Program-made: the position numbers and the translations under genes
The notes under the pieces: model-generated
The model's database searches: none
Seen by the model: only the letters and a program-made list of their open reading frames with translations
What the model was told of the DNA's origin: nothing
Part shown: positions 61,302 to 64,000 of the stretch, piece by piece
Layout of the letters: each line of letters opens with the position of its first letter
Numbering within the stretch: position 1 is the stretch's first letter
DNA from: Clavibacter sepedonicus
GTDB lineage: Bacteria > Actinomycetota > Actinomycetes > Actinomycetales > Microbacteriaceae
NCBI RefSeq assembly: GCF_000069225.1
Contig: NC_010407.1
Coordinates: 1,984,001 to 2,048,000 of the forward strand
Length of the DNA stretch: 64,000 bases
Direction: 5' to 3'

Positions 61302-62264
61302 TCATGACGTTGGTGACACTCGGGCCGCGGGCGTGAGCCCGTGGCTCGAGTGGATCCGTTCAGTGTTGTAGTGCTCGATGAAGGGGTCAAGCGCGTCGGC
61401 CCGGTGTTGGTTGCCGGTGAAGGGTTGCCGGTAGGCCCACTCGGTCGCGAGGGTCCGGTTGAAGCGCTCGACCTTGCCGTTCTGCCAGGGGCAGTGCGGG
61501 CGGATGAACTTCTGCCGCGCGCCCAGGTCCTGGACGGCGTTCTTGAACGCGGTCGAGTGCCGGTAGGCGAACGCGTTGTCCGTGATGACCCGCTCGATCC
61601 GGGTGATCCCATGCCCGGCGAAGTACGCCGCTGCGCGGGTCAGGAACCCGGCCGCGGTCGCGCCTTTCTCATCGGGATGGATCTCCGCGTAGGCGAGACG
61701 GGTGTGGTCATCGACCGCGGCATGGACGTAATCGAACCCGATCCCGCGGCCGCGGACCTGCTCGCTGCGCCCGTGGACCCGCCAGCCGCCTCCGTCCGGG
61801 ATCCTCCCGAGCTTCTTCACGTCCACGTGGATCAGATCACCCGGATGCTCGTGCTCATACCGGTGCGCCGTTGACCGGGATGCCCGGATCACGGCCCCGG
61901 TGACGGGGTCCAACCATGCCAACGGCGGCGCCCCGTGCCGGCGCAGGATGCGGGAGATCGTACGGGATGGAACACCTGTCACCGGCGCCAGCCGCGCAGG
62001 ACCCGCCCGCAACTGGGCCCGCGCTTCCAGCACGGCCCGTTCCCGCTCCGGGCTCGTTCGCCTCGGTACTGACCGGGGCCGCGATGACCGATCCGTCAGC
62101 CCTCGCAGCCCCTCGGCACGGAACCGGTTCACCCATCGATGCGCGCACTGCCGCGACACCCCCAGCTCCCGCGCGACGTGCGCGACCGGCCGACGATCCT
62201 CCACCACCCGCCGCACGAGGAGAACCCTCCCGTGAACCGTCAGACGAGCATTACCGTGGGACAT
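61302..62264 (-). CDS. IS481-family DDE transposase (copy B)
   Basis: 320 residues, identical to the copy A transposase except Gly for Ser in FTGNQHRADALDPF. All catalytic residues are present, so it is potentially active. AGGAGG lies 5 nt before ATG 62264. Confidence 0.96.
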   Translation of the reverse strand: MSHGNARLTVHGRVLLVRRVVEDRRPVAHVARELGVSRQCAHRWVNRFRAEGLRGLTDRSSRPRSVPRRTSPERERAVLEARAQLRAGPARLAPVTGVPSRTISRILRRHGAPPLAWLDPVTGAVIRASRSTAHRYEHEHPGDLIHVDVKKLGRIPDGGGWRVHGRSEQVRGRGIGFDYVHAAVDDHTRLAYAEIHPDEKGATAAGFLTRAAAYFAGHGITRIERVITDNAFAYRHSTAFKNAVQDLGARQKFIRPHCPWQNGKVERFNRTLATEWAYRQPFTGNQHRADALDPFIEHYNTERIHSSHGLTPAARVSPTS

Positions 62265-62318: not shown

Positions 62319-62401
62319 TTCACACGCCCCGAAGTGTCACCAACGTCATGGCCGAGTACACCAGGCCGGGAGCACCGGCCCGGTAGGCGAGGATGGACAC
62401 C

Positions 62402-63496
62402 GTGACCGACGCCGCCTCCCCCGTCTCCCCCCTCCGCCTCCACGACACCGCCGCCCGCGGGTTCGCCTCCGACAACTACTCCGGGATCCACCCCGAGGTG
62501 CTCGCGGCCATCGCGGCCGCGAACGACGGGCACCAGGTCGCGTACGGTGGCGACGCCTACACGGCCCGCCTGCAGGAGGTCGTCGGCGAGCACTTCGGCC
62601 GCGGCGCCGAGGCGTTCCCCGTCTTCAACGGCACGGGCGCGAACGTCACCGGACTCTTGTCGATGCTGCCGCGCTGGGGTGCCGTGATCTGCGCGACCAC
62701 GGCCCACATCAACACCGACGAGGGCGGCGCCCCCGAGCGCGTCGCCGGCATCAAGCTCCTCCAGGTGCCCACCGAGGACGGCAAGCTGACGCCCGAGCTC
62801 ATCGACCGCGAGGCGTGGGGCTGGGGGGACGAGCACCGCGCGCAGCCGCTCGCCGTGAGCATCACGCAGACCACCGAGCTCGGCACCGTCTACACGCCGG
62901 CCGAGGTGCGGGCGATCGCCGACCATGCGCACGAGCGCGGCATGCGCCTGCACATGGACGGTGCGCGCCTGTCGAACGCCGCCGCCACGCTGGACGCACC
63001 CTTCCGCGCGTTCACGTCGGACGCGGGCGTCGACGTCGTCAGCTTCGGCGGCACCAAGAACGGCCTGCTCTACGGCGAGGCGATCGTGGTGCTCGACCCC
63101 GAGGCGTCCGAGGGACTCACCTACCTGCGCAAGCTCAACATGCAGCTCGCGTCGAAGATGCGGTTCGTGAGCGCGCAGCTGCTGGCGCTGCTCGGATCCG
63201 AGGTCGACGGCGTGCCGCTGTACCTCCGCTCCGCGCGCCACGCGAACGGCATGGCCGCGCGCCTCCGGGCCGCGCTCGAGGGCGTCGACGGCGTGGAGTT
63301 CACGCAGGAGACGCAAGCGAACGGCCTGTTCGCGATCCTCCCCGAGGGCGTCGCCGACCGCCTCCGCGGCGAGTTCCGCTTCTACGACTGGGATCCGGCC
63401 CGCCGCGAGGTGCGCTGGATGTGCTCCTTCGACACCACCGAGGACGACATCGACCGCTTCGCCACGGCGATCCGCCGGGAGGTCGGGGCGGGGTAG
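62402..63496 (+). CDS. Low-specificity L-threonine aldolase (beta-eliminating lyase family)
   Basis: 364 residues from GTG 62402. PLP fold type I: NYSGIHPEVLAAIAAANDGH, VAYGGDAYTARLQE, FPVFNGTGANVTGL, LHMDGARLSNAA and the PLP lysine in SFGGTKNGLLYGE. Cleaves L-threonine and allo-threonine to glycine and acetaldehyde. GAGGAT lies 7 nt before the GTG, the leaderless layout; ATG 62393, three codons earlier, is the alternative. IS copy B ends only 41 bp upstream, so the native -35 region may have been replaced by IS sequence. Confidence 0.9.
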   Translation: MTDAASPVSPLRLHDTAARGFASDNYSGIHPEVLAAIAAANDGHQVAYGGDAYTARLQEVVGEHFGRGAEAFPVFNGTGANVTGLLSMLPRWGAVICATTAHINTDEGGAPERVAGIKLLQVPTEDGKLTPELIDREAWGWGDEHRAQPLAVSITQTTELGTVYTPAEVRAIADHAHERGMRLHMDGARLSNAAATLDAPFRAFTSDAGVDVVSFGGTKNGLLYGEAIVVLDPEASEGLTYLRKLNMQLASKMRFVSAQLLALLGSEVDGVPLYLRSARHANGMAARLRAALEGVDGVEFTQETQANGLFAILPEGVADRLRGEFRFYDWDPARREVRWMCSFDTTEDDIDRFATAIRREVGAG

Positions 63497-63497
63497 C

Positions 63498-63519
63498 GTC
63501 CCGTCGACGTCGACGGGAC
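63498..63519 (+). terminator. Palindrome after threonine aldolase
   Basis: Perfect 22-bp palindrome (GTCCCGTCGAC and its complement) one base past the stop. Confidence 0.65.
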
Positions 63520-63753
63520 CCGAGGCCATAGCGGCGACCTTCGGCATCATCTGCGCGGTCTGGAGCGGTTTCGTCGAAGCAACGTCTGGTGACGGATCAC
63601 CGCCTGCGCACAAGGTCGTCAGGAACGAAGCCCTGCAGCACGAACGCCCTGGCGGCTGAGCATCGGGGCCATCATCGCATCTGAACGAGGATCCCCTATC
63701 GGAACTTGACCATGACATGGCGATCCGTTCGGGGGGCGGGGCCCAATATGTAG
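63520..63753. other. Gene-free stretch, lower GC
   Basis: No convincing gene. A short frame reads AIAATFGIICAVWSGFVEA then stops, with no start or ribosome site, and resembles nothing I recognise. Base composition is visibly less GC-rich than the flanking genes, so this may be debris at the left edge of the acquired Abi locus. Confidence 0.4.
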
Positions 63754-63759
63754 TAGAGT
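63754..63759 (+). promoter_or_regulatory. Possible -10 box of the Abi locus
   Basis: TAGAGT in the AT-rich AATATGTAGTAGAGTCAAC, placing a start near 63766 just before the hairpin RNA. No recognisable -35 box. Confidence 0.4.
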
Positions 63760-63811
63760 CAACCCATCACGATCGGCCCGCTCGCCTTACGGCTCGGGCC
63801 GATTTTCTTTT
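63760..63811 (+). ncRNA. Candidate small hairpin RNA upstream of the Abi gene
   Basis: A single-stranded CAACCCATCACG is followed by a stem of 9 bp (ATCGGCCCG, 63772-63780, with 63795-63803), a small internal loop, 3 bp (GCC/GGC), a TTAC loop and a T-rich tail (TTTTCTTTT). This is a complete terminator, so most transcripts from the upstream promoter should end as an RNA of about 45-50 nt before the Abi gene. AbiF-type genes are known to be preceded by a conserved structured RNA (abiF RNA). The match is inferred from position and shape. Confidence 0.5.
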
Positions 63812-63825
63812 CCCGGGAGCGCCCA

Positions 63826-64000
63826 ATGGAGTATGCCAAGCCGTGGCTATCGATCGAGGACCAGATCGAGGGGCTCTCCCGTCGAGGCCTGGAGGTAGGG
63901 GACCGGCGCGAGGCTGGCGCCATCCTCCGGAACGTCGGGTACTACCGCTTGACCGGGTACCTCTACCCCTTCCGCCAGTCCGAGCGCTACGTCGATGACG
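63826..64000 (+). CDS. Abi-family protein (AbiD/AbiF, Abi_2), 3' end beyond window
   Basis: The first 58 residues are visible: MEYAKPWLSIEDQIEGLSRR, then EAGAILRNVGYYRLTGYLYP and FRQSERYVDD. The KPWLSIEDQIE opening and LRNVGYYRLTGYLYPFR are the Abi_2 signature. GGGAG 6 nt before ATG 63826. Family members are abortive-infection or toxin-like proteins, many with an HEPN-type RxxxxH further on, outside this window. Together with the upstream hairpin RNA it may form an RNA-antagonised toxin system. Likely a horizontally acquired defence gene. Confidence 0.82.
   Translation, partial: MEYAKPWLSIEDQIEGLSRRGLEVGDRREAGAILRNVGYYRLTGYLYPFRQSERYVDD

Follow-up and report, generated by a model that had tools for sequence, protein, structure and literature searches.

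The right edge of the window, by which we mean the whole 64,000-nucleotide stretch of DNA that was analysed (positions 1984001–2048000 of its contig, in a source genome of 3.4 Mb), carries on the + strand, in this order, a −10 promoter element (63754–63759), a predicted RNA of about 47 nt (63766–63812) and an AbiD/F (Abi_2) gene starting at 63826. The window ends within this gene, and the continuation of the locus was fetched as record L002 (window coordinate = L002 coordinate + 56000). We refer to the RNA and its closest counterparts as class A, and to the covariance model of the class A RNA, built from 37 distinct sequences, as R1. The features are listed below, with the evidence for each in brackets.

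63497..64000, no strand: left part of an insertion of about 3.1 kb that runs on to window-equivalent ~66627 (flank alignments and GC content)
63754..63759, + strand: −10 promoter element TAGAGT (TANNNT) (position conserved in class A loci)
63766..63812, + strand: predicted small RNA of about 47 nt, class A AbiD/F-associated, with an unpaired AUCAC leader, a hairpin and a U-tract (R1 match, fold, conservation limits)
63771..63780, + strand: 5′ arm of the 10-bp stem, GAUCGGCCCG (fold and pair count)
63784..63793, + strand: inner 3-bp helix GCC/GGC closing a UUAC tetraloop (fold and pair count; absent from the RNAalifold prediction on the alignment)
63795..63804, + strand: 3′ arm of the stem, CGGGCCGAUU (fold and pair count)
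63803..63811, + strand: U-tract UUUUCUUUU, an intrinsic-terminator-like tail that overlaps the stem end (class A core alignment)
63815..63819, + strand: Shine-Dalgarno-like GGGAG (by inspection)
63826..64000, + strand: 5′ part of the AbiD/F (Abi_2) gene for a HEPN RNase-like toxin (Pfam, PADLOC and PDB matches)

An earlier note on this DNA had described a promoter-like element, a hairpin with a U-tail, a ribosome site and a gene start, and we confirmed all of them at the positions that it gave.

The AbiD/F protein and its genomic surroundings

When completed, the abi gene ran from the ATG at 63826 to window-equivalent position 64815 (L002:7826–8815), encoding a protein of 329 amino acids (P0001). 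The protein matched the Pfam family Abi_2 (PF07751) over the whole profile (E 3.3e-49; 168.1 bits against a curated cut-off of 25.6) and PADLOC AbiD (E 2.2e-56); NCBIfam yielded no family for it, nor for the trypsin-like ORF described below. One PDB sequence, 8vz6 ‘Abi family protein’, was matched over nearly the full length (E 1.5e-29). The same entry, ‘PbAbiF dimer bound to ncRNA’, was the sole PDB match at E < 0.001 in a Foldseek search with an AlphaFold2 model of moderate confidence (pLDDT 76), with an E value of 4.4e-11 for 8vz6_A, TM scores of 0.62/0.68, an rmsd of 11.3 and about 25% identity in the structural alignment.

The completed gene also contains the HEPN motif RxxxxH, which the earlier note had named as the feature to look for. 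This motif (R-polar-xxx-H) is present as RNVAAH at residues 228–233 and aligns with RNSCCH of 8vz6, R228 and H233 falling on the catalytic R210 and H215. R228, N229, A232 and H233 were invariant in 24/24 aligned sequences, comprising the protein itself and 23 homologues of 59–81% identity that were hand-picked among 120 listed of 702. The named closest relatives, among the matches listed, come from Rathayibacter, Curtobacterium and Agromyces, which we take to be Microbacteriaceae. The joint change of R210 and H215 is reported to inactivate PbAbiF (PMC12373285). P0001 is probably an RNA-cutting defence toxin of the AbiD/AbiF type.

Besides the RNA and the abi gene, the insertion contains a trypsin-like ORF. 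Its two flanks, the aldolase-type gene end (the gene lies at 62393–63496 here, just left of the insertion) and the ppc side (a name taken from ORF inspection, not from a family search), are ~3.1 kb apart here but align at a distance of 3–27 bp in 5/17 genomes of the same genus; ~0.8–0.9 kb separates them in 2/17, and in 10/17 the 1.5 kb covered did not extend to the second flank. The GC content of 57–64% inside the insertion, as compared with 69–77% in the 500-base blocks on either side, bears out the locally lower-GC island of the earlier note. The trypsin-like protease ORF (PF13365; PADLOC PDC-S45) lies just downstream of abi (L002:9111–9944, window-equivalent 65111–65944) and looks broken, as its match ends prematurely and the remainder seems to lie in a different reading frame. 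The note had also placed the locus next to an insertion sequence. An IS481-type transposase gene is indeed nearby (61302–62264, minus strand), between ATP synthase genes and the aldolase-type gene, but the latter stands between it and the island. This insertion sequence seems private to the present genome at this place, because the loci of the 17 relatives show BLAST matches only past it, and the link of the cassette to it looks incidental.

Fold, conservation and gene linkage of the class A RNA

The 47-nt RNA (63766–63812) folded at −23.2 kcal/mol, as compared with −10.9 (sd 2.2) for 200 shuffled sequences, none of which was as good (z −5.5). A larger leader stretch of 101 nt proved ordinary (z −0.7), so that the signal resides in the short hairpin itself. 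In the predicted structure, a stem of 10 bp leads through a 3/1 internal loop to a 3-bp helix, which is capped by a tetraloop. R1 matched positions 63765–63810 with 70 bits, the locus being part of its own training set. The hairpin-and-U-tract RNA of about 50 nt that the earlier note had envisaged is conserved, with a size of ~47 nt that is a prediction and not that of an observed transcript.

The covariation across homologous loci on which that proposal had been made to depend was found as well. Among the 37 distinct sequences, 5 pairs had changed on both sides; 14 cells were changed in this way, against 2.3 in shuffles (0/500 as high), and 97.3% of the pair cells were paired, against 94.9% in shuffles. 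Sliding the pair partners strongly lowered these counts. The number of further pair types (9, against 8.3 in shuffles, with 188/500 as high) was not above chance, which counts against our main reading, and the four outer stem pairs never vary and are uninformative either way. RNAalifold applied to the alignment returned the 10-bp stem only; the inner 3-bp helix had one pair with compensatory changes and was broken in several alignment rows.

Conservation starts at 63765/63766, one base ahead of AUCA, and fades past the U-tract. More is conserved in the stem and in the unpaired leader AUCAY than pairing requires, although a part of this conservation arises by construction, the extraction pattern having required the leader, GATC and GATTTTC but not the rest of the stem. 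GATTTTC accordingly occurs in every distinct class A core, and the next T in 97%.

TANNNT ended 6–7 nt ahead of the RNA leader in 71/71 distinct class A loci (shuffled mean 2.1, maximum 7), and TGNTANNNT was present in 62/71, the locus described here being without it; no −35 box was conserved across the class A loci. A purine-rich, Shine-Dalgarno-like word occurred in the final 22 nt upstream of the gene in 66/71. At the locus itself, scans with the sigma-70 and terminator consensus found nothing, and the stem has an internal loop; the comparative evidence, namely the same RNA before homologous genes, the position of TANNNT and the covariation, stands in for these negative scans. The U-tract ends 14 nt before the abi start codon. 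The architecture and the conserved −10 element fit, as a prediction from sequence, an RNA located upstream of a toxin gene, with a shared promoter and a terminator between the two.

The RNA accompanies the gene among relatives. A protein-alignment scan returned 91 relatives, the best 80 of which gave 79 loci, 68 of them at ≥48% identity. R1 matched 66 of these 68 public loci, partly by construction because many had trained R1 or equal a training sequence. The two misses were L090, which begins inside the gene, and L098, which has masked bases at the spot of the RNA. In 64/66 the RNA lay at the normal distance before the gene, the gene match being incomplete in L104 and L110, and L105 (38% identity) was also positive, at its abi gene. 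Elsewhere in the 939 kb searched, no full-length match was obtained up to E 1; the weak matches on the reverse strand are the same hairpins. The organisms named for the 66 R1-positive loci are presumably all actinobacteria. The closest homologues (E ≤ 1e-100) in 398 genomes of the family, 76 of which had an Abi_2 match (73 over the cut-off), were accompanied by the class A RNA in 13/13 cases.

R1 also located the RNA directly before the gene in three records outside the training set, a Rhodococcus plasmid, a Cellulosimicrobium plasmid and a faecal phage record, although these RNAs may equal training sequences, the Rhodococcus one scoring as the same-species training locus L047. As its upstream neighbour, the Rhodococcus plasmid has a Fic gene and the Cellulosimicrobium plasmid an opposite-strand GNAT gene. 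Abi relatives of any RNA class occurred in 370 plasmid records (177 called conjugative) and 65 phage records, and the one phage record examined of these 65, at 59% identity, had the class A RNA. Occurrence on plasmids and phages is as expected for a mobile defence gene.

R1 also detected the RNA apart from a usable gene. Its matches in the 398 genomes numbered 28, a lower bound owing to strict filters: 16 before an abi gene or a clear fragment, 5 before a short N-terminal remnant (by eye), 5 without a recognisable gene within 1.5 kb, and 2 low-scoring and terminator-like. Thus, 10/26 credible matches had no usable abi gene within 1.5 kb, which counts against our main reading. The RNA can outlive the gene, which is compatible with decay or solitary RNAs no less than with function. 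Four of the 5 gene-less copies (L130, L131, L132 and L140) have kept the −10 box, the stem and the U-tract, by eye, and such copies may be relics or solitary antitoxin RNAs. The orphan RNAs of L130 and L131, which come from sister genomes, are identical in 45/45 positions, against 94/100 in the adjoining upstream and 81/100 in the adjoining downstream sequence; in our judgement, this does not suffice for a claim of selection on a solitary RNA. A pattern search of viral contigs gave one record with a class A RNA, at the contig end (L177:14–59). Its neighbouring ORFs include no abi gene, by eye, and it resembles the orphan RNA of genome G374.

Distinctness from the Rfam abiF RNA and tracking with the protein tree

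A covariance search with the Rfam abiF RNA model (RF03085), which the earlier note had suggested as a check, gave no match at the locus, in the genome or in 13 class A loci. An Rfam scan of 62500–64000 up to E 5 gave no abiF match and only a chance-level microRNA match. The abiF model was likewise silent in the whole genome, a result that alone proves little because the same search was silent in every control genome. In the 13 class A loci, no match was obtained up to E 2 (gathering score, 37 bits). The model did match at L006–L008, three class B loci from the same genus whose Abi_2 genes are more distant; the scores, 47–48 bits, exceed gathering and show that the model works on this kind of DNA. 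The lack of abiF matches at the class A RNA therefore points to a distinct RNA class. Downstream of the same Abi_2 genes of L006–L008 is a TPP riboswitch. Among five non-actinobacterial loci scanned with abiF, 2 had sub-cut-off matches at the expected place and 3 had none; we take the former two to be from Bacteroidota.

Could the class A RNA nevertheless be a diverged abiF RNA rather than a separate class? It shares the position, the size range, the hairpin-plus-U-tract form and the toxin family with the abiF RNA, and R1 gave weak full-length matches (16–24 bits, E 0.007–0.7) at some hairpins of classes D, Dp and C, a possible sign that several classes share an ancestor. A remote common origin of several RNA classes is indeed possible. 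However, the abiF model recognised class B of the same genus while leaving all 13 class A loci unmatched, and R1 in turn was silent, up to E 1, at the class B loci searched (L006–L008, L109, L111–L114, L116, L117 and L119). The structures differ as well: in the abiF consensus, the outer stem measures 6 bp, the internal loop is 1/6 and GCCUCU...GCUCA is present, whereas the class A stem measures 10 bp, its internal loop is 3/1 or 2/1 and nothing of that abiF sequence occurs. We therefore consider it unlikely that the class A RNA is a diverged abiF RNA.

A hairpin occupied the same slot, by eye, in 41/42 distinct upstream stretches of distant homologues (<45% identity), L031 having none there by eye. 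In 23 folded representatives, a TANNNT box lay 10–13 nt before the stem in 18, the automatic choice of the hairpin having run into the leader or left the gap unreadable in the other 5, and the stem end was 9–55 nt from the gene. We sorted the hairpins by eye and with regular expressions into classes A, Ap, B (Rfam-like), C, D, Dp, E and F, labels of our own that were set before the tree was made. When the abiF model was tried on classes A, B, C, D, Dp, E and F (Ap excluded), class B alone was matched at the hairpin. A weak abiF match (L039:1344–1379; 28.8 bits, sub-gathering) upstream of a class F hairpin is probably due to chance. In small alignments, compensatory changes were seen in 3 pairs for class E (6 rows), 5 pairs for class D (5 rows) and 1 pair for class F (5 rows).

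Placed on a tree of 101 proteins, built by a quick maximum-likelihood method, the eight RNA classes needed 7 changes, the minimum, as compared with a shuffled mean of 36.9 (0/200 as low). Class A formed one side of a branch with an SH-aLRT of 99, and seven classes each formed one side of a branch; the two Dp rows did not, and both are long-branched and unsure in placement. As the labels were made by us and relatives inherit both parts, this tracking shows co-inheritance and not binding. A further hairpin form, AAGGCUAGAGCC..., precedes Abi_2 genes in L009–L011 of the same genus; it was left out of the tree and had no Rfam abiF match up to E 2.

Some genomes have several pairs. In G224, for which contamination is estimated at 9%, a class A gene that contains one internal stop shares a contig with a class F gene, and both have hairpins of their own; G007 and G012 each have a class C gene and a gene of the L009–L011 type. 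Such coexistence is as expected if the pairs are mutually specific. It is conceivable, and we offer it tentatively and at somewhat below even odds, that the AbiD/F clades are each locked to their own hairpin (at least 8 classes, of which Rfam abiF sees one of the seven scanned), that the pairs are mutually specific so that several can reside in a cell without cross-talk, and that some hairpin RNAs outlast their toxin as solitary RNAs and may act against addiction by incoming copies.

A proposed RNA antitoxin and its known counterparts

We propose that the class A RNA acts as an antitoxin/attenuator of a type III-like kind and that its partner, the AbiD/F protein, is a HEPN RNase toxin. We consider this reading quite probable; the RNA most likely keeps the toxin silent. 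The proposal starts from the gene with its domain and HEPN motif, the conserved and covarying RNA, the promoter position and the tracking of RNA class with protein clade. Its steps of transcription, termination, read-through, binding, neutralisation and triggering are modelled on AbiFCd/RCd22 and PbAbiF. A single promoter (63754–63759) would start the transcript at ~63766, and most transcripts would end at the hairpin and U-tract, yielding the ~47-nt RNA. Rare read-through would supply the mRNA of the AbiD/F HEPN RNase; we propose read-through because the 14 nt between the U-tract and the start codon hardly fit a second promoter. The abundant RNA would then bind the HEPN dimer through the clade-specific hairpin and the unpaired AUCAY leader, blocking the RNase, and phage infection or loss of the locus would lower the RNA, free the RNase and stop growth.

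The hairpin might instead be a cis-acting attenuator only, which lowers abi mRNA by premature termination and releases an RNA without function. Its terminator form, with a U-tract ending 14 nt before the start codon, is what such a device would have, and a terminator alone explains the stem and the U-tract. It does not need the leader and much of the stem to be nearly invariant, as they are down to ~50% protein identity, and each protein clade tends to go with a hairpin sequence of its own; attenuation as the sole role thus seems improbable to us. That the hairpin is the terminator of the upstream gene, near abi by chance, is very improbable despite its position between two same-strand genes, since it lies inside the insertion and is missing where the flanks join (5/17 relatives), accompanies abi beside unrelated upstream genes (Fic, opposite-strand GNAT) and has its own −10 element.

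The proposed antitoxin RNA can be compared with several known systems. In type III toxin-antitoxin systems such as ToxIN, an RNA antitoxin is encoded upstream of an RNase toxin, with a terminator in between, and the RNA consists of tandem repeats. The present locus resembles them in having a predicted RNA upstream of an RNase-like toxin gene and a terminator-like element between the two. Unlike the ToxIN type, the class A RNA contains no tandem repeats but one hairpin only, and the toxin is, as we take it, a HEPN protein and not of the ToxN fold. Both the Rfam abiF RNA and the class A RNA are small hairpin RNAs just upstream of an Abi_2 gene; the stem, the loop and the conserved letters are different, and RF03085 leaves the class A RNA unmatched. 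A search by the Rfam model alone therefore misses such loci (0/13 class A loci matched), and we found no description of the class A hairpin in the open-licence literature searched. Judged by its sequence, the locus belongs to the AbiD/F modules of actinobacteria and has an RNA of a new class.

The closest parallel in layout comes from Clostridioides difficile prophages, whose phage homologues are ~26% identical to the protein described here. PMC12373285 places RCd22 upstream of abiFCd and under a common promoter, with a terminator at its end that is read through; RCd22 limits abiFCd by termination and neutralises the toxin in trans by direct binding. AbiFCd/RCd22 and the present locus have in common an Abi_2 HEPN protein, an RNA directly upstream, one promoter, a terminator between and a read-through mRNA, the arrangement here being deduced from sequence. 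They differ in that RCd22 is 88–132 nt long and has two Rfam abiF motifs, whereas a single ~47-nt hairpin RNA without a motif match is predicted here. PbAbiF with its ncRNA (8vz6) is a relative of the protein over nearly its full length, with aligned catalytic residues, at ~25% identity in the structural alignment; this likeness concerns the protein alone.

In a review (PMC12737573), AbiF is described as cutting single-stranded RNA, with bulge nucleotides of its RNA acting as the inhibitor. AbiF and its RNA have been proposed as the starting point of Cas13 (PMC12373285, PMC12737573). The earlier note had suggested an actinobacterial example of the system so linked to Cas13 ancestry, and an AbiD/F gene with a conserved RNA is what the locus contains. 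If each AbiD/F clade has its own hairpin, these loci would provide a natural series on how a protein changes its RNA partner, and such a change of partner is a step needed toward a guide RNA.
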